A stretch of 39,584 bases of DNA from positions 1 to 39,584 of the forward strand of contig JANYJH010000046.1 in the NCBI GenBank assembly GCA_025361865.1, read 5' to 3'. This document shows positions 7,688-22,082 of this stretch, piece after piece (positions within the stretch are counted from its first letter, which is position 1; each line of letters begins with the position of its first letter). Both the position numbers and the translations under genes were made by a program. The stretch is from Phragmitibacter sp. GTDB lineage: Bacteria; Verrucomicrobiota; Verrucomicrobiia; Verrucomicrobiales; Verrucomicrobiaceae. The notes beneath the pieces were generated by a model, which did no database searches, had not been told where the DNA came from, and worked only from the letters and a program-made list of their open reading frames with translations.

Positions 7688-7739
7688 GTTTCATACTTTG
7701 CGCCTTGATGCCTGTGGCCTTTGTGCCTTGATGTTTCAT
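7688..7739 (-). repeat. 7/8-mer array between two GTTTCAT copies
   Basis: On the - strand the stretch 7732-7695 is built from units such as ACAAAGGC, CACAGGC and ATCAAGGC, alternating seven and eight bases. It is bounded by an exact seven-base direct repeat, GTTTCAT, at 7688-7694 and 7733-7739 (ATGAAAC on the - strand, carrying in-frame ATG codons). The layout looks like a small insertion that duplicated its target, placed exactly in the divergent start region of two genes. Confidence 0.5.
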
Positions 7740-11324: not shown

Positions 11325-12728
11325 TTAGTAACGGTAGTGATCCGTCTTGTAAGGGCCTTCAACGGGCACGCCGATGTAGTCGGCTTGGTCTTTGCTGAGC
11401 ACGGTGAGCTTCACGCCGATCTTGTCTAGGTGGAGTCTCGCGACTTCTTCGTCGAGCTTCTTCGGAAGCACGGTGACGCCGATGGCTCGGGTTTCGCGGG
11501 TTTCCCAGAGTTCGATTTGAGCCAGCGTCTGGTTGGTGAAGCTGTTGCTCATGACGAAGCTCGGGTGGCCTGTGGCGCAGCCGAGGTTCACGAGACGGCC
11601 TTCAGCGAGCATGTAGATGCTGTTGCCAGCAGGGAACGTGTATTTGTCCACCTGGGGCTTGATGTTGAGCTTCTTGATGCCAGCGAGCTTCTCCAGCTTG
11701 TCCACTTGGATTTCGTTGTCGAAGTGACCGATGTTACAAACGATGGCCTGATCCTTCATCTTCACCATGTGTTCGACGGTGATGATGTCCTTGTTCCCGG
11801 TGGTGGTGACGTAGATGTCGCCCGTGCCGAGGGTGTCTTCGATCGGCATCACGCGATAGCCTTCCATCGCCGCTTGCAAGGCGCAGACAGGATCAATTTC
11901 CGTGACAATGACCTGAGCGCCCATGCCGCGAAGAGCCGCAGCGCAGCCTTTGCCCACATCGCCGTAGCCGCAGACGACGCCGACCTTGCCGGCGATCATC
12001 ACGTCAGTGGCGCGCTTGATACCGTCGAGCAAGGATTCACGGCAGCCGTAGAGGTTGTCGAACTTGGACTTCGTGACGCTGTCGTTCACGTTGATGGCAG
12101 GGAAGAGGAGCTTGCCTGCATTGGCCATTTCATAGAGGCGATGAACGCCCGTGGTGGTTTCTTCGGAGACGCCCTTCAAGTCCTTCACAATGGTGTGGAA
12201 GATGCCGGGCTGGTCTTTCGCGATGTCCTTCAAGAGGTCCTTGATGACTTTCACTTCATGGTTGTCGGACGGGGAATCTACCCACTTGTCACCGTTCTCC
12301 ATTTCGTAGCCTTTGTGGATGAGCAAGGTCACGTCACCACCGTCATCAACGATAAGTTCTGGTCCTTTGCCACCAGGGAAGATGATGGCCTTCCAAGTGC
12401 ACCACCAATACTCTTCCAAGGTCTCGCCTTTCCAAGCAAACACCGGCGTGCCTGAAGCTGCGATGGCGGAGGCGGCGTGGTCTTGCGTGGAGAAGATGTT
12501 ACAGGAAGCCCAGCGCACATCGGCACCGAGTTCCTTCAAGGTCTCAATCAACACACCCGTCTGGATGGTCATGTGGAGGGAACCTGTGATGCGCACGCCA
12601 TTGAGGGGCTTCTTCGGGCCATACTTCTGGCGCGTGGCAACCAAGCCGGGCATCTCATGCTCAGCGATGTCGAGTTCCTTGCGGCCAAATTCGGCCAGGG
12701 CGATGTCTTTAACTTTGTAGTCGGTCAT
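11325..12728 (-). CDS. ahcY: S-adenosylhomocysteinase
   Basis: AhcY hydrolyses S-adenosylhomocysteine to adenosine and homocysteine, removing the product inhibitor of methyltransferases. The 467-residue protein has the expected [16 protein letters not shown], the substrate region around [14 protein letters not shown]-like residues, the NAD-binding GYGDVGKG, and the conserved C-terminus PYKTDHYRY. Length matches bacterial enzymes with the extra internal segment (about 460-475). The start at 12728 sits only two bases from a heptamer array that ends the S23 cassette, and there is no Shine-Dalgarno in front of it. It is downstream of metK and probably shares its transcript; a strong terminator follows. 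Confidence 0.98.
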
Positions 12729-12730
12729 AG

Positions 12731-12766
12731 AGATATAAGATTCAAGATTTGAAGATACTAGATGGG
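12731..12766 (+). repeat. Left AGATNNN heptamer array
   Basis: Five units beginning AGAT at 12731, 12738, 12745, 12753 and 12760 (for example AGATATA, AGATTCA); the spacing is seven bases except one of eight. The array fills the gap between ahcY and the end of the S23 gene. A matching array on the - strand lies at 13118-13153. Confidence 0.8.
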
Positions 12767-12768
12767 GT

Positions 12769-13122
12769 TTAGTCGTTGGGCAGTGAGCGGATCAAGCCTT
12801 GCAGCATGGCTCCGATTTCTTTGAGTTCCTTGATGTGGGTGTTTGCGATGTCTGGGTTGATGATACCGGCTCTAACTCCGAGATAAAACTGGGTGCGGAG
12901 TTCACCGGCTGAGCCTTTAGCTATTCGGAGAAAGCGAGCAAATTCACGCTCACCATCTCTCTCAGCACCCTCTGCGATATTCGAAGGCACCGAGATAGCG
13001 GCACGAGCCATCTGGTCTTTGAGTGAGTAGAGCTTGATGCTATCAACCAATTTCAAAACTTCGACGGCCAGTCGTGCAGCTCTTTTCCAGACTTCAAGAT
13101 CCTCGAATTGATGGCTTGGCAT
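12769..13122 (-). CDS. Four-helix-bundle protein, S23/IVS family
   Basis: The 117-residue protein has the S23 signature: [17 protein letters not shown] at the start, then [39 protein letters not shown], here recognisable by SVPSNIAEG and [12 protein letters not shown]23 proteins were first found in 23S rRNA intervening sequences; the accessory protein Avd of diversity-generating retroelements belongs to the same fold family. Free-standing copies have no settled function. Here there is no rRNA or retroelement. The gene fills the space between metK and ahcY, enclosed by inward-facing heptamer arrays; its own ATG is inside the last repeat unit. This suggests a self-contained cassette. Confidence 0.9.
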
Positions 13123-13153
13123 CTTGTCTCTTGAATCTTGAAGTCTTGTATCT
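13118..13153 (-). repeat. Right AGATNNN heptamer array
   Basis: Read on the - strand from 13153, five units start AGAT/AGAC/AGAG (AGATACA, AGATTCA, AGAGACA and similar), with one unit of eight bases. The last unit contains the S23 start codon. It ends six bases short of the metK stop codon and mirrors the array at 12731-12766. Confidence 0.8.
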
Positions 13154-13158
13154 GGCCC

Positions 13159-14334
13159 CTACTTCACCGCCTTCTGGAGGGCCGCGACCTTATCCGTAGT
13201 TTCCCACGTCAGGTCTTTGTCGTTCTTGCCGAAGTGACCGTAGTTAGTGGTCTTGGAGTAGATCGGACGAAGCAGGTTCAGGTGCTTCACGATGTCGGCT
13301 GGCTTGAAGCTGAAGACCTTGTTCACCGCTGCGATGATGGAGTCTTCGGACTTCTTGTTGGTGCCGAAAGTATCCACATGAACGCTCACGGGATTCGGGT
13401 GACCGATGGCGTAGGCGAACTGCACTTCGCAACGATCGGCGAGGCCAGCAGCGACCACGTTCTTCGCGACCCAGCGGCCCATGTAGGCGGCGCTGCGGTC
13501 CACTTTGGAAGGGTCTTTGCCAGAGAAGGCACCGCCACCGTGACGGCCCATGCCGCCGTAGGTATCCACGATGATCTTGCGACCCGTGAGGCCAGTGTCG
13601 CCTTGAGGACCGCCGACGACAAACTTACCCGTGGGGTTGATGAGGAACTCGGTGTCCTTCGTGAGCATGTTCTTCGGAAGCTGCTTCTTGATGATCTGCT
13701 CGATGCAGAACTTCTCGATCTCGCTGTGCTTCACGCCCTCAGCATGTTGCGTGGAGATGACCACGTTCACGATGCGCGTCGGGATGCCGTCCACGTATTC
13801 CACGGAGACCTGGCTCTTCGCGTCTGGGCGCAGCCATTTCGCGGCTTTGCCAGCCTTGCGGATTTTGGTCAACTCACTGCCGAGGCGGTGCGCATACATG
13901 ACAGGTGCGGGCATGAGCTCAGGAGTCTCATTGCAAGCGTAACCGAACATGAGGCCTTGATCGCCAGCACCTTGTTCAGCAGTCTTCTTGCCTTCGGCCT
14001 TCTTCGCATCTACGCCTTGCGCGATGTCCGGGCTCTGGGCGGTGATGATGTTCATAACGAACACTTTGTCCGCGTGGAAAACATCGTCATCATTCACGTA
14101 GCCGATCCCACGGATGGCATCGCGGACGATCTTCACGTAGTCGAGCTTCGCCTTCGTGGTGATCTCACCGCCAACGATGGCGATATTGCTTTTCACGTAG
14201 GTTTCACAGGCCACGCGGCTGTTTTTGTCCTGAGCAAGGCAGGCGTCGAGCACGGCATCGGAGATGGTGTCAGCGACCTTGTCGGGATGGCCTTCGCCAA
14301 CGGATTCTGAAGAGAAGATGTAACTCTTGGGCAT
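13159..14334 (-). CDS. metK: S-adenosylmethionine synthetase
   Basis: MetK makes S-adenosylmethionine from methionine and ATP. The 391-residue protein has the N-terminal [11 protein letters not shown], the hexapeptide GAGDQG in the segment [12 protein letters not shown], and the glycine-rich P-loop-like [16 protein letters not shown], all diagnostic; length is normal (380-400). The start at 14334 gives [11 protein letters not shown], as in relatives. It is divergent from an ArsR-type regulator fused to a methyltransferase domain, with 61 bases between the starts. ahcY lies downstream, separated by the S23 cassette. Together metK and ahcY cover two steps of the methyl cycle; methionine synthase is not in the window. 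Confidence 0.98.
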
Positions 14335-14347
14335 AGTGTGTTCTGGT

Positions 14348-14379
14348 TTGATATGGACAGATAATGATGCGTTGATATG
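14348..14379. promoter_or_regulatory. Candidate operator, paired TTGATATG
   Basis: The eight-base sequence TTGATATG occurs at 14348-14355 and 14372-14379, 24 bases apart, in the 61-base divergent region between metK and the ArsR/methyltransferase gene. Direct repeats in this location are good candidates for the regulator's binding site and overlap where both promoters must be. Not proven; the spacing also allows a TTGATA -35 element. Confidence 0.45.
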
Positions 14380-14395
14380 TTTACTGATTTAAACC

Positions 14396-15337
14396 GTGTC
14401 GTCAATTCTCAAATCATTCGCTCTACTGTCTGATGCCAACCGGGTGCGCATCCTGGCTTTGCTGCGTCACGAAGAACTCTCCGTTGCAGAGCTTCAGGAG
14501 ATCCTCGCGCTCGGTCAGAGCAATATCAGCGCGCAACTCTCGAAGCTCAAAGAGGCGGGCTTGGTGACGGATCGGCGCGCGGGTAAAAACCGTCTCTATC
14601 GTCTGCATCCCCCGACCAGCAAGGAACAAGAGACACGGAATCACCTACTGGCGCTGCTGGATGCGGCTACACTGGAGATGCGTGAGGCGAAACGCGACCT
14701 CACCGCGCTAAAGCTGATTCGTCACAAACGAGCGGATACCGCGCGGAATTACTTTGATGCGCTAGCGGGGAAGTTCGGCAAGCAATACATCCCGGGCCGC
14801 TCGTGGAAAGGTTTGGGCGAAACGCTTTTCCATCTCATACCGCCAGTCGTCGTGGCCGATCTTGGAGCAGGTGAAGGGACGCTTTCCCAGATGCTCGCGA
14901 AGCATTGTCAGAAGGTCATCGCCGTGGACAACTCATCAAAGATGGTCGCTTACGGCACGAAACTGGCCAAGCAGCATGGCTTCGCGAATCTCGACTATAG
15001 GCTAGGGGACTTGGAAGAGCCGCCGATTGACGCTGGCACGGTGGATGTCGCCTTCTTCAGCCAAGCGTTGCATCATGCGCAAAATCCCGCCAACGCCGTG
15101 GCCGCAGCGCATCGTATCCTGAAGCCCGGTGGCCGATTGGTGATCCTTGATTTGATGAAGCACACCTTTGAAAAAGCGAGAGCGCTTTATGCGGATGTGT
15201 GGCTCGGCTTCTCGGAAGTGGAACTGCATGAAATGCTGGAAGAGGCGGGCTTTGAACAGATCGAAGTGCGCGTGGTGGATCGCGAGAACCGCAGTCCTTA
15301 TTTCCAAACGGTGCTCGCGGTCGCGGTGAAGGCTTGA
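14396..15337 (+). CDS. ArsR-type HTH fused to SAM-methyltransferase-like domain (SahR-like)
   Basis: Residues 1-70 form an ArsR winged helix (SDANRVRILALLRHEELSV, QSNISAQLSKLKEAGLV, then a wing with GKNRLYRL). Residues 120-313 form a Rossmann methyltransferase-like domain with motif I DLGAGEG (155-161), acidic residue D178 after strand two and a LKPGGRLVILD motif. This is the architecture of SahR, an ArsR-family repressor of the SAM cycle in Proteobacteria whose methylase-like domain senses S-adenosylhomocysteine. Its position divergent from metK-ahcY supports the same role. No metal-binding Cys pair of classical ArsR/SmtB is visible in the HTH. GTG start at 14396. An alternative is a real methyltransferase with its own HTH. 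Confidence 0.85.
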   Translation: MSSILKSFALLSDANRVRILALLRHEELSVAELQEILALGQSNISAQLSKLKEAGLVTDRRAGKNRLYRLHPPTSKEQETRNHLLALLDAATLEMREAKRDLTALKLIRHKRADTARNYFDALAGKFGKQYIPGRSWKGLGETLFHLIPPVVVADLGAGEGTLSQMLAKHCQKVIAVDNSSKMVAYGTKLAKQHGFANLDYRLGDLEEPPIDAGTVDVAFFSQALHHAQNPANAVAAAHRILKPGGRLVILDLMKHTFEKARALYADVWLGFSEVELHEMLEEAGFEQIEVRVVDRENRSPYFQTVLAVAVKA

Positions 15338-15387
15338 CGGTTTCAGCGGAAATCTCTAGCGTGTCGGGAGTTCAAAACACCCACGCT

Positions 15388-16194
15388 ATGGATTATAATC
15401 TCGCCAGAAACGGTCAGCAGCTCGGAGTCATGTCCGAAGCCCAAGTTCAACAAGGTCTCGCCGATGGGTCCGTTCTTCCCACTGACATTCTTTGGTGTGA
15501 AGGCATGACGGATTGGAAGCCAGTCTCAGAGGTGTTCAATGCCAATGTCGCGCCCCCCGCATTACCGTTCGTGCCAGTGATGACGAGACCCGTAGCAGTG
15601 CCGATGAGCACGTCCACACCGCCAGCCAGCGGACTCGCCATTACCTCTTTAGTCATGGGCATACTAAGTTTCGTAACGTGCGGAGCGACGGGGATTATTG
15701 CCATCATCTGCGGTCACATTGCGAAAGCCAGAATCAATGCATCTGGCGGAACCATCGGCGGGGCAGGTATGGCCCTCGCAGGATTAATCATGGGCTACAT
15801 CGGCTTTTTCCTGATAGGGTTTTCCGTTTTGGCAGCACTCGCCTTGCCCGCCTTTAATGGCATTCAGCAGCGCGCAATGCTCACCAAATCAATCAGCAAT
15901 GCACGACAGATTGTCTTGGCTTGTAAGATATATGCGTCTGACCACGAAGGGAAATACCCCGGCGATCTTGATGTCTTGATCAAGGAGGGCATCCTTTCTG
16001 ATGAGCGTGTTCTCCATGATCCGCTCTCCAAAGACGCTTCCGCCATTGGCTACGACTACCTCGGAGCTGGGATGAAGGACAACGATCCACCTGATAAAAT
16101 CCTCCTCCAGAGCAAAAGCCTCTCCATGGGCAAGCGGGTCATTGGCTACAACGACGCCTCAGTGCAGGCGGTGAGAGAGAAGCCTGCGAACTAA
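15388..16194 (+). CDS. GYF_2/DUF4190 membrane protein with pilin-like C-terminal part
   Basis: The 268-residue protein starts MDYNLARNGQQLG; residues 1-55 resemble the GYF_2 domain (LPTDILWCEGMTDWKPVSEV). A Pro/Thr-rich linker leads to two transmembrane helices with LAITSLVMGILSFVTCG, as in DUF4190. After the second helix the sequence LALPAFNGIQQRAMLTKSISNAR is like the start of type IV pilin/pseudopilin proteins, and YASDHEGKYP fits the same family in Verrucomicrobia. The start at 15388 is chosen over an upstream one at 15334 that overlaps the regulator gene. Function unknown; a membrane-anchored protein with an external C-terminal domain is likely. Confidence 0.8.
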   Translation: MDYNLARNGQQLGVMSEAQVQQGLADGSVLPTDILWCEGMTDWKPVSEVFNANVAPPALPFVPVMTRPVAVPMSTSTPPASGLAITSLVMGILSFVTCGATGIIAIICGHIAKARINASGGTIGGAGMALAGLIMGYIGFFLIGFSVLAALALPAFNGIQQRAMLTKSISNARQIVLACKIYASDHEGKYPGDLDVLIKEGILSDERVLHDPLSKDASAIGYDYLGAGMKDNDPPDKILLQSKSLSMGKRVIGYNDASVQAVREKPAN

Positions 16195-16207
16195 GAAGCG
16201 GCATTGT

Positions 16208-16380
16208 GTAGCAGCCGACGTGAGGAGGCTCTGAAGTTCCTCCAAGGACATCCAAGACGCTTAGAAACTCCGTCGTTACTTGTTCGTGTGGCCAGCGACG
16301 CGAACAAGCACGTTCGATTCACTCTTCAGCCATTGGGCATTGTTGGCCTTTAGTTAGAGCCTCCTTACGTCGGCTTCTAC
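16208..16380. repeat. Intergenic element with 27-base inverted ends
   Basis: Left end 16208-16234 and right end 16354-16380 are inverted copies matching at 24 of 27 positions, with the core AGCCGACGT(G/A)AGGAGGCTCT. Between them, a perfect 8-bp stem CTTGTTCG/CGAACAAG (16279-16286 and 16301-16308) makes a further hairpin. No coding frame. The layout is that of a MITE or other small palindromic intergenic element, sitting between two convergent genes. Confidence 0.75.
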
Positions 16381-16387
16381 TTTTGGA

Positions 16388-18880
16388 TCACTTCGCCTTA
16401 AAGCCCGGATACTTGCTGGCCAACTGACTTCTGAGCGCCGCTGCTTTCGCTTTTTCACCGAGCTTATCCAGCGCCTTGGCGGCCTTCTCAGCTGCTTCTG
16501 GCGTGATCTCGGGATCGACGAAAATCTGGCTGATGACCACATAGTTGCTAGCGGCGAGTTGCCATTCCTTGGTCGCTCCAGCCTTGTCATCATTGGCCGC
16601 CAGGGCATCTCCATGAGCCATGCTGATGTCGCCTTCGAGGATTTGGAGCTGCGCGTGGAGCTTACCTTCGCGGGCGATTTCTAGTCCTTCCTTCGCGCCT
16701 TTCTCGGCGTCATCAAATTTCCCGAGCGCGAGCAAAGCCCTTCCCTTGCTGAGCAGTGCCTTCGCACGCCCTGCGCCTTCTGGGGTCTGCGCGAGGTAGT
16801 TGTCTAACGCCTTGATCGCCGCCTCATAATGGTTTGCTTCCAGTTCAGCGAGGCCGAGGTAATTCCAAACCATCGCCTGTGTGTTGCCGGGTTCATCAGG
16901 CGTGGTGGCCTTGGTCAAATAGCGGGCACTGGCACTGTAGTTCCCGGCATCGTAATAGCGCTTACCCATGTAGGTGAGGATGGCGGGCGAGATGCTTCCA
17001 TCCTTCTTAACGGCGAGGTAGGCGTCCACTTCCTTCGTGAGTCCATCAAGGTCTTCGCGAAGATATTGGCAGGAAATCATCAACTGGCTGGATTTGTCCA
17101 AGTATTGCACCGGGTCTGCGGAAATGGACTTCCGCAGCGGCTCGATGGCCTTCGCATAAGTCTCCTTCTGCTTCTGATCAAAGTAGCCACGACCGATCCG
17201 ATACCAGGCTTCACCAGCGGCAGCGCTCTTTGGGAACTTGGTCACCAGAGCTTCAAAGTCCGCGATCATACCTGGAACGTCCCGCGTCTCAGCCTTGATG
17301 AGCGCGCTTTGATAGTAGGCCATCTCCGCCGCCGCATGTTCCGGGTGCTCCTTGATGATGAGACCGAAATCCGTAAGCGCATTCGGAAAATCATGCACGG
17401 CTTTCCGACAAACACCACGCTGAGCGAGCGCGAGCGGCATGTTATCATCTTTCGGGTAGTCCGTGATGAAAGTCGTTAGCGTGGAGATACCATCGTTATA
17501 GATACCGGATTCGGCTTCGGCGAAGCCTTTCTTATACAGCACGCTGGAGCGCACTTTCTCCGGCACCTTCGTCATCGAGACTCCCGCATAAGCCTCAGCC
17601 GCTTTCTTGTAATCTGTTTTTCCAAACCACCAATCCGCGCGGATGAGACGGGACATGGTAAGGTATTCGTGGTCCTTGTGACCACTTGCATAACGGCTCT
17701 CGAAGCGTTCAGCGAACTCGATGATGTCCTTGTCTGCGAGCTGGAAAAAGCACAGCAGCTTATGATAGCCCGCCTCGAAGGCTTCAGGTGCATCGGGGTA
17801 ATTCTTCTCCAGAGTCAGGAAGATCTCGACTGCGGAGCGGTAGGACTGCTGATGCTTCTGCGCGAGGCCGATGAGCAGCAGCTCCTTCGGGCGCACATCC
17901 TCCGGGGCTAGGGATGTGGGATTGGCATTGTAAGTCTTCACCGCCGTGGCGTAGTCACCTTTGGCAAAGGCGGCTTGGATCAAACCGAATACGGCGATGC
18001 CTCGCTTATCAGCAGGTAAATCTCTGAGCGCCAGTGCCTGTTGGAAGCTCTTGATGGCGAGGTCTCCTTTGCCCTGTTCATTCTGGATCAGGCCCGCTTT
18101 GATCAAGGCATCACCGAGCACGGCGTTGTCCTTGGTCATGCCGATGATTTCCGTGAAAGAAATGAGCGCTTCCTCTTTTTTACCCGCTTCCAGCAAGCCT
18201 GTGGCGACTTCCACCAGCGCGGCTTCGCGGTAGGGATTGTCGGTCTTGATTGCGGCCAGTCCTTTATAAGCGGCGAGCGCTTTCGTTTTCAAGCCGGCGA
18301 CTTTCAGCGAGAGCGCTTTGTTGTTAATGGCTACGAGCTTGATGTCTTGGGAACTGATGCCTCTCTCGCAGATTTCAAAATACTGCGCTGCCTGTTCAAA
18401 ATCACGCCTGTTGTAAGCGAAGGCTCCCATGCGATACGCGGAACTGGCCGCGCTTTCCGTTCTAGGAAAGCGTTTCAGGCACTCAAGGTAGGCGCGTTCA
18501 GCGTCTTCACTCTGACTGGTTTTCAGATTCGATTCACCGAGTCGGAACCAGACTTCAGGCGCGTGCGAGCCCTGCGGATAAGCGCGGAGGTAGTCGCTGA
18601 AGGGCTTGATGGCGAGCTGATAATCCTTCTGCGAGTAACACAGAATGGCGTAGTCATAGAGGTCTTCATCCGGCCCTTTGGAGATGGGCGCTTTTGGCTT
18701 CGGCGGATCTTCCACGGGCATAGCCCTCGGCGGCGCTTTCTCATCCACTGGTTCCGCGATGGGAACCGCCTTCGGAACCTGTTGGGCGCTAGCGCTGACG
18801 ACTCCCAGCATCACTGCTGCTGCTGTCACCGCACACATCATTCCACACCTTGATCTCGAAGCCTTCATCACTCTGTCCAT
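16388..18880 (-). CDS. Exported TPR-repeat protein
   Basis: Residues 1-33 make a signal peptide (hydrophobic core TAAAVMLGVVSASAQ), followed by a Pro-rich acidic linker and then tetratricopeptide repeats over nearly all of the remaining 780 residues, visible as spaced blocks such as YDYAILCYSQKDYQLAI, EVWFRLGESNLKTSQSEDAERAYLECL and AEAWYRIG-like units. TPR arrays are protein-interaction scaffolds; with ExbB/ExbD just upstream the role is probably envelope organisation, similar in place to YbgF/CpoB beside Tol. The start at 18880 is eleven bases after the exbD stop; 18868 (MKASRS) is also possible. Probably periplasmic. Confidence 0.85.
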   Translation of the reverse strand: MDRVMKASRSRCGMMCAVTAAAVMLGVVSASAQQVPKAVPIAEPVDEKAPPRAMPVEDPPKPKAPISKGPDEDLYDYAILCYSQKDYQLAIKPFSDYLRAYPQGSHAPEVWFRLGESNLKTSQSEDAERAYLECLKRFPRTESAASSAYRMGAFAYNRRDFEQAAQYFEICERGISSQDIKLVAINNKALSLKVAGLKTKALAAYKGLAAIKTDNPYREAALVEVATGLLEAGKKEEALISFTEIIGMTKDNAVLGDALIKAGLIQNEQGKGDLAIKSFQQALALRDLPADKRGIAVFGLIQAAFAKGDYATAVKTYNANPTSLAPEDVRPKELLLIGLAQKHQQSYRSAVEIFLTLEKNYPDAPEAFEAGYHKLLCFFQLADKDIIEFAERFESRYASGHKDHEYLTMSRLIRADWWFGKTDYKKAAEAYAGVSMTKVPEKVRSSVLYKKGFAEAESGIYNDGISTLTTFITDYPKDDNMPLALAQRGVCRKAVHDFPNALTDFGLIIKEHPEHAAAEMAYYQSALIKAETRDVPGMIADFEALVTKFPKSAAAGEAWYRIGRGYFDQKQKETYAKAIEPLRKSISADPVQYLDKSSQLMISCQYLREDLDGLTKEVDAYLAVKKDGSISPAILTYMGKRYYDAGNYSASARYLTKATTPDEPGNTQAMVWNYLGLAELEANHYEAAIKALDNYLAQTPEGAGRAKALLSKGRALLALGKFDDAEKGAKEGLEIAREGKLHAQLQILEGDISMAHGDALAANDDKAGATKEWQLAASNYVVISQIFVDPEITPEAAEKAAKALDKLGEKAKAAALRSQLASKYPGFKAK

Positions 18881-18890
18881 GCTCAATGAC

Positions 18891-19337
18891 TTACTTCGGG
18901 GCTGCGGGTGCTTTGGCTCCATCTTCTGGGGGCCGGGTGGCGAAGGATACATTCCAGATGCCAGCCTTCTGACAGATGTTCAGCACATTCATGGTGAATT
19001 TATAAACGCTGTTCTCATCACTCCGCAGAATGACGGCGATGTCCTTGTGAACGCTGCCGATGATCTGAAGCTTCGCGAGCAACTGCTCCTCTGTGAGCTT
19101 CTCACCTTCCACGACGATCTCGCCACCTTTACGGACATTGACGATGATTTCTCCAAGATCACGCTGGGCGCTTTTCTTGCCTTCATCCGCCGCCGGGACG
19201 CTGATTTCAATCTCCGTTTCCCGACGTGCGTAGTTCCAAGTGATGATGAAGAAGAGCAGCAATAGGAATAAAATATCGATCATCGGTGCCAACTGCATCG
19301 GCACCGGTTCGATCTGGCTTAGCTTGCGGAACTTCAT
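18891..19337 (-). CDS. exbD: ExbD/TolR-type biopolymer transport protein
   Basis: The protein of 148 residues has one N-terminal transmembrane helix with the conserved Asp at residue 20 (LAPMIDILFLLLLFFI), followed by a periplasmic domain including VPAADEGKKS and VILRSDENSVY. ExbD/TolR pairs with ExbB/TolQ to use the proton gradient for work on the outer envelope. It lies 12 bases after exbB and just before the TPR gene. An Ala/Pro-rich tail ends the protein. A second ExbD copy, usual in some Verrucomicrobia operons, is not present here. Confidence 0.92.
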   Translation of the reverse strand: MKFRKLSQIEPVPMQLAPMIDILFLLLLFFIITWNYARRETEIEISVPAADEGKKSAQRDLGEIIVNVRKGGEIVVEGEKLTEEQLLAKLQIIGSVHKDIAVILRSDENSVYKFTMNVLNICQKAGIWNVSFATRPPEDGAKAPAAPK

Positions 19338-19349
19338 GCAGGGAAAGGA

Positions 19350-20195
19350 TTAGTGATCCATCTGACCTGGGTTCCGGCTTGCTGCTGCACGGGCCGCGCG
19401 CTTGTATTGAGCGGAGAGCAGCGCCATCAAATGCGTGGAAGCGGACTCCAGTTCTGAGATGAGCCGTTGCACCTTGCCGCGATAAATGGCGTAAACCATG
19501 AGGCACGGAATGCCGATGCTCAGCCCGCCTGCCGTATTGAAGAGCGCCTCGAAGACACCGCCTGCAACGCCCATCTGCTGGTTCCCGGAGAACGTGTCAG
19601 GATTGGCAATGTCTTTAAACGAAGTGATCAAACCGATGACCGTCCCGAGTAGTCCGAGCATGGGAGCCATCGAGCCGATGTCCGCCAGATAAACCACGCG
19701 ACCAAGAAGCATGGAGGACTGACGGCTACCTTCCGCTTCGGTCACTTCCCGCACTTCATCAAAGCTGGCCGTGGGGTTTTTCGTCGCGAAGTCGAGCGCC
19801 TTCGCCGTGATGTGCGCGATGCATTCATTACGCCGCGTGCAGACGGCGAGCAGTCCCAGATAGTCCTGCTTTCGGATCAAGGCGTCTGCGGAATTCATGA
19901 ACGCATCACTCACCACCGTGCCCTGTCGGATAGTGAAGACCACGAAGAAGACCATGATCATGGCGAAGATGGACAGGCCGATCATCGGATAGGCGAGGAG
20001 GCCCATCTTGTGAAAAATCTCCTCGGGAGTCAGCGCGGCGGCTGGCTGCGTTTTGGAAACCGCCCGTGGAGCAGGCGTGGTCATGGCCGCAGCCGTAGCT
20101 GTATCAGCAGCGGGTGCTTGTTGAGCTAGCAGCGTGGTGTTCGCACATCCGAACACGAGCATAAGCGCGGCAGAGAAAAGAAGGGTCAAGCGCAT
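19350..20195 (-). CDS. exbB: ExbB/TolQ/MotA-family proton channel protein
   Basis: The protein of 281 residues starts MRLTLLFSAALMLVFGC with a signal sequence (possible lipobox-like LVFGCAN) and has an Ala/Pro-rich linker, then three transmembrane segments. Diagnostic blocks are the C-terminal helices: LADIGSMAPMLGLLGTVIGLI and ALFNTAGGLSIGIPCLMVY, typical of ExbB/TolQ. The start at 20195 is preferred; an upstream in-frame start at 20351 would add 52 residues encoded by the repetitive intergenic array, which reads as YSLLTTAYLQL and is not protein-like. Periplasm-linked energy transduction with the ExbD just downstream is expected. Confidence 0.92.
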   Translation of the reverse strand: MRLTLLFSAALMLVFGCANTTLLAQQAPAADTATAAAMTTPAPRAVSKTQPAAALTPEEIFHKMGLLAYPMIGLSIFAMIMVFFVVFTIRQGTVVSDAFMNSADALIRKQDYLGLLAVCTRRNECIAHITAKALDFATKNPTASFDEVREVTEAEGSRQSSMLLGRVVYLADIGSMAPMLGLLGTVIGLITSFKDIANPDTFSGNQQMGVAGGVFEALFNTAGGLSIGIPCLMVYAIYRGKVQRLISELESASTHLMALLSAQYKRAARAAASRNPGQMDH

Positions 20196-20230
20196 CGGGC
20201 GCGAGTCTAGTAGAGGAATGCGGAGTTGCA

Positions 20231-20279
20231 AGTAGGCAGTAGTCAGGAGCGAGTAGATAGGAGTCAGTAGCCAGTAGCA
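20231..20279 (+). repeat. AG[T/G]AGNN heptamer array, left, + strand
   Basis: Seven consecutive seven-base units; each has A at position 1, G at 2, A at 4 and G at 5 (for example AGTAGGC, AGTAGTC, AGGAGCG). It lies 36 bases upstream of the exbB start. A matching array of five units lies on the other strand at 20397-20431. Confidence 0.85.
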
Positions 20280-20324
20280 AAGGCTTCCCTCTAGCAATCC
20301 TTTGAGCCTTGTTGGATCTTCGTC

Positions 20325-20345
20325 CGGCATTCGGAATTCATCATT
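20325..20345. repeat. Three CGGAATT-like heptamers
   Basis: CGGCATT, CGGAATT and CATCATT follow one another in the spacer between the two larger arrays. A different heptamer family in the same gap; three units only, so weaker. Confidence 0.5.
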
Positions 20346-20396
20346 TCCCATACTTTCCCACCCACCACGTCGTAACTACCTTACAGCACCTTCCCA

Positions 20397-20431
20397 TACT
20401 ACTGCCTACTCGCTACTGACTACTGACTCCT
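20397..20431 (-). repeat. AG[T/G]AGNN heptamer array, right, - strand
   Basis: Five seven-base units in inverted orientation relative to 20231-20279 (on the - strand AGGAGTC, AGTAGTC and so on). It ends seven bases before the uvrC start codon, so uvrC's promoter or ribosome binding site must overlap or lie within the array. Confidence 0.85.
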
Positions 20432-20438
20432 CCCACCC

Positions 20439-22082
20439 ATGTCCTTCCGGCGCGAAAAACCTGATTTGAACGCGAAGCTCCATGATGTGCCCCATCAGCC
20501 GGGCTGCTACATCATGCGGGATCGTTTGAATCGCGTCATCTACGTGGGCAAGGCGCGTGATTTGCGGAAGCGTCTCAGCAACTATTTCACCGCCTCCCGC
20601 ACGAAGCACGCGGATCAAAAAACGCGCGCGCTCATCGAGAGCATCTGGGATTTCGACATCCACATCGTGCGGAATGAAGGCGAGTCGCTCATCCTGGAAA
20701 TGCGGCTCATCAAGGACTTCCGCCCGAAATACAACATCAGCTTCAAGGACGACAAACGCTACCTGCTCGTGAAGGTGCAGATGGCAGATCCCATGCCGCG
20801 CTTCATTCTGACGCGCGTGAAGAAGGAGGATGGCGCACGGTATTTCGGCCCTTACGCCCACAGCGGTGCTTTGCGCACCACGCTGAACTGGATGAACCGC
20901 GAGTTCGGCCTGCGCATCTGCCGACCGCATAATCCCGATGGCAATGACTATATTCATTGCCACAACGACATCATCAAGAACTGCTCCGCGCCATGCATCG
21001 GTCGCGTGAGCTTGGACGAGTATCGGGCGAAGATGGACCTCGCTTGTGACTTCCTTGCAGGCAAGTCCAACCAGCTCATTCCCGCCTTGGAAGAGGAGAT
21101 GAAGAAGGCCGCGAAGAAGCTCGATTTCGAGCGCGCCGCTGAGTTGCGGGACATGATCGAATCCTTCAAGACGACGCTCAAACCGATGCGCACCTTTGAG
21201 CGCGGGTCGAACCGCCGCGTGGCCAGCACGCTCGACCCGATGGCGGATGTGAAAGAGCTTCAGGAACTGCTGCACCTAGAGCGTCCGCCGCTGGTCATGG
21301 AGTGCTTTGACATCGCGAACATCGGCCTCGCCCACTGCGTCGCCAGCATGGTGCGCTTCAACAACGGCGTGCCCGACAATTCCAACTACCGCCGCTATCG
21401 CATCAAGATCGTGAGTGGTCAGAACGACTTCGCCGCCATGAGTGAGGTGGTGCGTCGGCGTTACAGCCGTGTCCTCTTGGAAGGCCGGAAACTCATCAAT
21501 GCTGAAGACCTCGACATCTCCCAGGAAGGCCCGCTTGAAGCCATGCGGAGACTGGAAGCCTTAAACGATGAAGAACCCTTTGAAGACGAATCTGGTGAAG
21601 GTCCAAACCCCTCACCCCAAAGCCCAAAATCAACCTTCATCCGCCTGCCAGACCTCGTGATCGTTGACGGTGGGAAAGGTCAGCTCTCCTCAGCGATGGA
21701 AGAGCTGCAACGCCTCGGCCTGCATGACTTGCCGCTCATCGGGTTGGCTAAGGAAAACGAAGAAGTGTATCGCCCTCATCAAAGCGAACCCGTCATCATT
21801 CCGCATGATCGCGGCGCTTTGAAACTGCTCCAGCGCATTCGCGATGAAGCGCACCGTTGGGCTAATGGCTATCATCAATTGTTGATGAAACGACGCATCG
21901 CCGAAAGCCTCTTGGATGAATGCCCCGGCGTCAGCGCCTTGCGCAAAGCCGCGCTGCTTCGCGCCTTTGGTTCCGTGGCTCAGTTGCGCAAAGCGGGCGT
22001 GGAAGAGATCGCCGCCGTGCCCGGCATCAGTCATGCGATCGCCGAGACGGTGCAGAAGTTCCTCGCCGAGCGTGGGGCATAA
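20439..22082 (+). CDS. uvrC: Excinuclease subunit C, shortened middle
   Basis: UvrC makes both incisions around DNA lesions in nucleotide excision repair with UvrA and UvrB. The GIY-YIG domain is at residues 18-95 (GCYIM, VIYVGKARDLRKRL), the UVR helix pair near 214-249 (LEEEMKKAAKKLDFERAAELRD), the RNase-H-like nuclease from about 285 (ECFDIAN with D291; VIVDGGKGQL with D410), and helix-hairpin-helix motifs at the C-terminus (PGVSALRKAALLRAFGS). Only about 40 residues separate the UVR domain from the nuclease Asp, against about 160 in E. coli UvrC, so the central segment is missing; and residues 360-398 form an acidic/Pro-rich insert. Total 547 residues, a bit short. The start at 20439 is preceded by the heptamer array. 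Confidence 0.95.
   Translation: MSFRREKPDLNAKLHDVPHQPGCYIMRDRLNRVIYVGKARDLRKRLSNYFTASRTKHADQKTRALIESIWDFDIHIVRNEGESLILEMRLIKDFRPKYNISFKDDKRYLLVKVQMADPMPRFILTRVKKEDGARYFGPYAHSGALRTTLNWMNREFGLRICRPHNPDGNDYIHCHNDIIKNCSAPCIGRVSLDEYRAKMDLACDFLAGKSNQLIPALEEEMKKAAKKLDFERAAELRDMIESFKTTLKPMRTFERGSNRRVASTLDPMADVKELQELLHLERPPLVMECFDIANIGLAHCVASMVRFNNGVPDNSNYRRYRIKIVSGQNDFAAMSEVVRRRYSRVLLEGRKLINAEDLDISQEGPLEAMRRLEALNDEEPFEDESGEGPNPSPQSPKSTFIRLPDLVIVDGGKGQLSSAMEELQRLGLHDLPLIGLAKENEEVYRPHQSEPVIIPHDRGALKLLQRIRDEAHRWANGYHQLLMKRRIAESLLDECPGVSALRKAALLRAFGSVAQLRKAGVEEIAAVPGISHAIAETVQKFLAERGA

Follow-up and report, generated by a model that had tools for sequence, protein, structure and literature searches.

A pair of inverted heptamer arrays between exbB and uvrC

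Within the 39,584-nucleotide stretch of DNA analysed here (the window), two tandem heptamer arrays face one another between the divergent genes exbB and uvrC, across a spacer that carries no gene:

19350 to 20195, - strand: exbB (MotA/TolQ/ExbB family), real start at about 20195
20231 to 20279, + strand: left array, seven units of AG[T/G]AGNN (unit scan, TRF)
20280 to 20396, no strand: interior of the pair, 117 bp, without a gene
20397 to 20431, - strand: right array, five units of AG[T/G]AGNN, facing the left array (unit scan, TRF)
20439 to 22082, + strand: uvrC, starting 7 bp beyond the right array

Our unit scan reproduced the positions, unit counts and 117-base spacer given in a first-pass annotation of this DNA, and TRF also calls both arrays. 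The left array reads, on the + strand, AGTAGGC, AGTAGTC, AGGAGCG, AGTAGAT, AGGAGTC, AGTAGCC, AGTAGCA; the right array reads, on the - strand, AGGAGTC, AGTAGTC, AGTAGCG, AGTAGGC, AGTAGTA. None of the 12 units departs from A1, G2, A4 and G5. That runs of this kind lie beyond chance, as the annotation had asserted, is borne out by simulation: AGKAGNN runs reached two units at most in 60 Markov-1 sequences as long as the window, and their period-7 scores peaked at 13, where the observed arrays score 18 and 16.

The annotation had further held the arrays to be non-coding and the peptide YSLLTTAYLQL to be an artefactual extension of exbB. We agree on both counts. The open reading frame at 19350-20351 reads across the left array, giving YSLLTTAYLQL, and only residues 176-302 of its product match ExbB; relatives align from an internal start, MRLTLL, with an ATG at about 20195 on the - strand. 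As the likely start of exbB lies some 35 bp downstream of the array, the longer frame is a read-through artefact, and annotators should be warned that reading across such arrays makes false gene extensions.

The 117-bp interior has no significant similarity to S23 proteins (a four-helix-bundle family) nor to what lies inside the remaining gene-less pairs, described below, and comparison revealed neither a shared MITE interior nor an S23 remnant. No 5-mer is common to the two outer flanks, and no target duplication is visible. A scan of positions 12500-20700 against Rfam returned one sub-threshold chance match only, and thus no CRISPR or other known RNA family. In three more distant genomes that keep exbB beside uvrC, too diverged for base-exact comparison, the junction is free of arrays.

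One heptamer family at 21 loci of the genome

Searching the 4.67-Mb source genome with the three-unit pattern AGKAGNNAGKAGNNAGKAG gave 31 + 34 matches, compared with 5 + 6 for a reversed control (65 against 11), so that the locus is not unique in the genome, which is the outcome the annotation had named as refuting its reading. The matches collapse to 21 loci, exbB-uvrC among them. Across 130 units the family can be written AG[T/G]AG[T/C][C/G], with A1 and A4 invariant and G2 nearly so, and the arms at different loci are different draws from this one degenerate unit (hereafter AGKAG). At all 13 two-armed loci the + arm precedes the - arm, the two being separated by about 12 to 376 bp; the paired, inverted arrangement proposed from a single locus is therefore general in this genome. 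The exbB-uvrC pair itself passes the inward-facing test, its inverted arrays being built from one heptamer family.

One AGKAG pair, on contig C67, has an S23 gene inside it, and the unit family at exbB-uvrC is the same as that of this S23-bearing element. Many of the gene-less pairs nearly fill the intergenic gap, often with arms a few bases from a stop or start codon; they frequently lie between co-directional neighbours, and the same family is found beside unrelated genes. The interiors of the 13 pairs are unrelated to one another. Furthermore, the arms of a pair fold together no better than arms swapped between pairs (-32.5 versus -33.5 kcal/mol), and on this ground we rejected arm-by-arm compensation or gene conversion within pairs. 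Shared flank 5-mers show no excess in the gene-less AGKAG family, giving no sign there of target duplications.

A motif-free scan of 230 kb recovered nine inverted pairs at period 7 and two at period 8; periods 5, 6, 9, 10 and 11 gave no pairs. The contigs scanned were partly picked for their AGKAG loci, so no density can be estimated from these counts.

Inverted arrays bracket S23 genes across many phyla

The source genome has ten S23 genes (PF05635, four-helix-bundle), one of them in the window, where the S23 cassette named in the first-pass annotation proves to be real:

12731 to 12749, + strand: AAGATTC-type heptamer array, low side of the S23 gene
12781 to 13110, - strand: S23 / four-helix-bundle gene (PF05635, TIGR02436), between metK and ahcY
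13122 to 13142, - strand: AAGATTC-type heptamer array, high side, inverted relative to the low-side array

On inspection, nearly all ten genes are flanked by arrays on both sides, the unit being specific to each: AGTGG, CTAAAGT, AGTAG, AAGATTC, AAGAATT, GGAGT (period 8), GAGTGAT, GGATTTT, TGGAAAA and GAACATT. Two S23 subtypes are present in the genome, a NIAEG type and an RSGTS...DFI type (L033, L035-L040), and since arrays occur at both, the association is not confined to one subtype. The geometry of the exbB-uvrC pair had been likened to that of an S23 cassette minus its gene. This comparison has stood up well, given that the AGKAG pair on C67 encloses an S23 gene and that all well-resolved S23 genes examined have such arrays. 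Close ahead of an open reading frame that starts at 7738, the window also contains a lone array of period 8, at 7696-7734 (reverse complement ...AAGGCACAAAGGCC...CAAGGCGCAAAG); this array is similar to 8-mer pairs at L202:15524 and L203:15573.

We extended the analysis to 118 S23 loci from the source genome, its relatives and 80 named genomes, spanning many bacterial phyla and some archaea. Not all of these are independent, orthologues being included (L048 and L103 are the same in sequence). Among 229 sides of 250 bp flanking S23 genes, the best period was 7 on 130, 14 on 30 and 8 on 24; among 211 control sides 1 kb away, period 7 was best on 10, period 14 on none and period 8 on one. The two arms of an element match as inverted repeats at 5.00 of 7 positions, compared with 3.32 +/- 0.07 when arms are permuted (82 elements with period 7 on both sides). 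A core of A-G-[T/G] is common to the units of different elements: after alignment by best cyclic shift its information is 2.87, against 2.03 +/- 0.06 for a null in which columns are permuted within each unit (62 elements).

Arm lengths, approximate because they were taken from score segments, cluster at four and five units (53 and 31 of 164 arms). The entries for two solved S23 relatives, XCC0516 (2gsc) and 2rld, contain five chains each; that one unit might be bound per subunit is, on these two observations, a suggestion only. The number of units differs between orthologous copies (L081/L092, L090/L096). Whether the period is 7 or 8 tracks the S23 tree in part, with 10 changes where 14.2 are expected (minimum 11 in 300 shuffles). 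The idea that S23 clade sets the period thus holds only partly, and the orthologous L081 and L086 differ. In phages, just two weak S23 matches were found.

Some S23 loci have other features. Three cassettes (L083, L088 and L094, at about 1300-2000) carry longer inverted repeats of TTGAGGCGCTGCGC / CCTAAACCAGCG type in place of 7- or 8-mers. The S23 genes of L215, L216 and L217 are 74-76% identical, with neighbourhoods that are unrelated (L215/L216) and 8-mer arrays that differ.

Residence and turnover at shared junctions

Several S23 cassettes are old residents. That between metK and ahcY occupies the same place in 14 species from four families of the order, and its units drift from AAGATTC/AAGACTC to TTCAGTTT types, the two arms mostly agreeing within a species. 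At another site a whole cassette has been swapped: L082 has 8-mer arrays and L087/L093 have 7-mer arrays, with flanks up to 96% identical, arrays that differ and S23 genes that have diverged.

Two junctions connect the gene-less and gene-bearing forms. The lepA junction carries a gene-less AGKAG pair in the source genome; among relatives it carries S23 with 8-mer arrays in three genomes (G004, G002, G012) and single arrays of other units in two (G003, G013). At the gspE/gspF junction there are gene-less pairs in the source genome (AGKAG) and in G012 (CAGTAAT), S23 cassettes with other units in G001, G002, G011 and G018, and an empty gap of 27-34 bp in G005 and G009. Comparison of these junctions indicates that gene-less pairs occupy sites at which relatives have S23 cassettes.

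At the L084 site, one genome has an S23 cassette and sister genomes (L230, L231) have other DNA between residual TTGGTGC arrays; these relatives were considered as empty sites and dismissed on that account.

Filled and empty sites in cyanobacterial plasmids

Evidence for insertion comes from cyanobacterial plasmids. In Trichormus (L213) and Scytonema (L214) the same site is filled by an array-S23-array unit with GTAAT at both ends; the empty counterparts in Nostoc linckia (L283) and Aulosira (L290) read AAAAAGTAATTAACAAATAA, and the surrounding sequence is about 97% identical. A Nostoc plasmid operon, a-b-c-d, is similarly informative: on pNsp_b the genes are separated by gaps of only 2-15 bp, on pNsp_c there is an S23 cassette between c and d, and on pNsp_a one separates b from c and is flanked on each side by TTCTA. 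Base-exact 5-bp duplications are limited to these two plasmid sites. A third candidate, TAATG/TTATG, has one mismatch, and base-exactness is likewise missing from sites A, C and D. Two more filled/empty sites confirm insertion between tightly packed genes, again not base-exact, and at a TraM-linked site about 40 bp has been replaced on one side. Across 93 S23 elements, 5-mers common to both outer flanks were found in 37, compared with 25.5 +/- 4.0 expected (p 0.003); 6-mers and 7-mers showed no excess in the same set. The target duplications and empty sites show a DNA insertion step for S23 cassettes.

The cassettes of L213 and L299 share 78% identity across 419 bp, arrays included, and have unrelated flanks. 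In the Nostoc edaphicum plasmid pNe_5, an S23 cassette with AGTAGGG units (L212), sharing the AGTAG core found at exbB-uvrC, lies between nrdB and nrdA; this site is empty in Calothrix NIES-4105. At the Trichormus-type site of Nostoc C052 (L284), only the left array and a fragment of the S23 gene remain. This is a shell in the making, and a direct view of how the gene-less form originates. L299, L300 and L301 (about 100-420) have one plasmid junction and the same outer heptamer arrays in common and differ in their interiors, as if these had been exchanged or deleted.

Origin of the exbB-uvrC pair

For S23 cassettes as a class, inverted arrays of 7-mers, less often 8-mers, bracket the gene across many phyla; the cassettes lie between stop and start codons; sites that are otherwise near-identical either hold the entire array-S23-array unit, with 5-bp target duplications, or lack it; and gene-less forms are found at the same sites as S23 forms. 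We consider it likely, short of being established, that the exbB-uvrC arrays form the termini of a small mobile cassette without a gene, which would be either a deleted remnant or a non-autonomous copy. Insertion has been demonstrated for the class and not for this copy; that the pair is an S23-cassette shell is inferred from the identity of its unit with that of the C67 element, its geometry, the gene-less parallels at two junctions and the absence of arrays from three relatives. We call it a gene-less shell rather than a full member of the class on the grounds that its 117-bp interior has no S23 similarity.

Under this interpretation, the ends of the cassette would be terminal inverted repeats built from tandem heptamers, the gene-bearing form being array, S23 gene, inverted array. 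The S23 protein is inferred to recognise the units, as DNA or as RNA, in cis and in trans, perhaps with one unit per subunit. By the same inference, it is the C67 element whose S23 gene the AGKAG copies would need, or would once have needed. S23 is not known to carry a nuclease motif, so that one has to allow for a recombinase, from the host or acting in trans, or for an RNA step. Several observations count against the shell interpretation, the lack of such a motif among them. This copy has neither a target duplication nor a same-genus empty site to support it. The arms of an AGKAG pair match each other no better than they match those of other pairs, and the interiors are unrelated, unlike an ordinary MITE copied whole. 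Some S23 cassettes, that between metK and ahcY for one, are long-standing residents, and the base-exact duplications rest on just two plasmid sites.

Could the arrays instead act at the level of RNA, as a hairpin in intercistronic mRNA that is bound by S23 and/or cut by RNase III, as in the 23S intervening sequences, making up a genome-wide post-transcriptional network? Read as RNA the unit presents AG[G/U] every 7 nt, comparable with the (G/U)AG repeats recognised by TRAP. The placement of gene-less pairs, often between co-directional genes and within a few bases of stop and start codons, would suit such a role, as would the Coxiella intervening sequence, which has a 28-bp terminal stem and, directly ahead of its S23 ORF, GACAGAT heptamers (PMC4990558), and MacGregor's post-transcriptional proposal for TAACTGA arrays upstream of start codons (PMC4679880). 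When the exbB-uvrC region is folded as RNA, a check that the first-pass annotation had suggested, it does fold better than shuffled sequence on both strands (z -3.95 on +, -2.98 on -); as inverted repeats in general fold, however, this does not discriminate. The arms show no compensation for one another, and the target duplications and empty sites show insertion at the DNA level. We regard the RNA-level account as unlikely, while noting that it may be complementary to the mobile cassette and need not exclude it.

Simple repeats grown by slippage without any element, with inverted pairs arising through template switching at hairpins, would account for the differences in unit number between orthologous copies, and in many bacterial genomes no long simple repeat is commoner than the heptamer (cited in PMC4679880, PMC4692102). 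Yet such a process leaves unexplained the association with S23 across phyla, the common AG[T/G] core, the inward orientation of all 13 pairs, the recurrence of a single unit family at 21 loci, and the presence or absence of whole units with 5-bp duplications. The S23 association already largely refutes it, and we give it very little credence as an origin; slippage probably lengthens arrays already present. Hardest to credit is a classical cis-element serving exbB and uvrC, be it a bidirectional terminator, a G-quadruplex or an operator pair. The position between divergent genes would fit, and work on Xanthomonas and Nostoc has examined G-rich heptamers as G4 motifs (PMC4692102), but AGKAG has no G-runs, its family adjoins unrelated genes elsewhere, and the three relatives that keep the gene order have no arrays at this junction.

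Returning to the mobile cassette, the evidence suggests that mobile elements of this kind are very widespread and have apparently gone undescribed. It is tempting to go further, and to envisage pan-bacterial transposon-like cassettes in which the S23 four-helix bundle is the sole protein, the ends serve as a 'ruler' of 7- or 8-nt units, built on an AG(T/G) core and offering one unit to each oligomer subunit, the unit co-evolves with S23, the same protein also works in trans on copies without a gene, and the known intervening sequences of rRNA are a branch that inserted into 23S rRNA. We put this forward tentatively, as a conjecture that may well fail.

Comparison with known systems

MITEs, and REPINs with their RAYT, are likewise short non-autonomous copies with a terminal inverted structure, many per genome and few carrying a gene. 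The present elements differ in that their ends are heptamer arrays unlike in every copy, their interiors are unrelated, and S23 is no known transposase. By the usual criteria for a MITE, end-to-end common sequence is not met by the AGKAG pairs, and a target-site duplication is found for their S23-bearing relatives and not in the gene-less AGKAG family. The Avd protein of diversity-generating retroelements belongs to a related four-helix-bundle family (a weak NF033474 match, E 1.8e-4); no reverse transcriptase and no template or variable repeat were seen in the loci examined, without a systematic survey.

Heptamer arrays have been described before. The GGGAATC repeats of Xanthomonas are degenerate intergenic heptamers in 70-75 convergent inverted pairs, and Nostoc has the heptamer GGGGA(T/C)T; the Xanthomonas pairs were treated as G4-forming repeats that keep their positions between two species and show no association with mobile elements (PMC4692102). 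In contrast to the arrays reported here, S23 goes unmentioned in their description; an S23 protein of solved structure, XCC0516, comes from X. campestris, where GGGAATC arrays are predicted on both sides of its gene. The TAACTGA repeats of Beggiatoaceae, cyanobacteria and Bacteroidetes are also intergenic tandem heptamers near start codons, and the reverse complement, TCAGTTA, contains the AGT core, but almost all are single arrays and S23 again goes unmentioned. They have been proposed as post-transcriptional binding sites for S1, Csp or CsrA, with a repeat-binding protein suggested as a possible mobile part (PMC4679880). A link between S23 and heptamer arrays was not found in the literature that we searched, mostly without subscription journals, which is not proof of novelty.

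Intervening sequences in rRNA have been known since 1990. Those in the 23S rRNA of Coxiella, Leptospira and others resemble the present cassettes in having one S23-family ORF between terminal inverted repeats, and have long been suspected of being mobile-element remnants. In Coxiella, tandem GACAGAT heptamers lie just upstream of the S23 ORF in strain-variable copy number (PMC4990558). The cassettes described here, in contrast, sit between protein genes, have 7- or 8-mer arrays with element-specific units, and are known with empty sites, a 5-bp duplication and many gene-less copies; the exbB-uvrC pair, too, is outside 23S rRNA. Heptamer repeats have so far had no accepted explanation, nor is any function known for the S23 or 'four helix bundle' family, which is annotated in very many genomes. 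If heptamer arrays and S23 are one mobile element, both puzzles become testable together with the origin of the rRNA intervening sequences.
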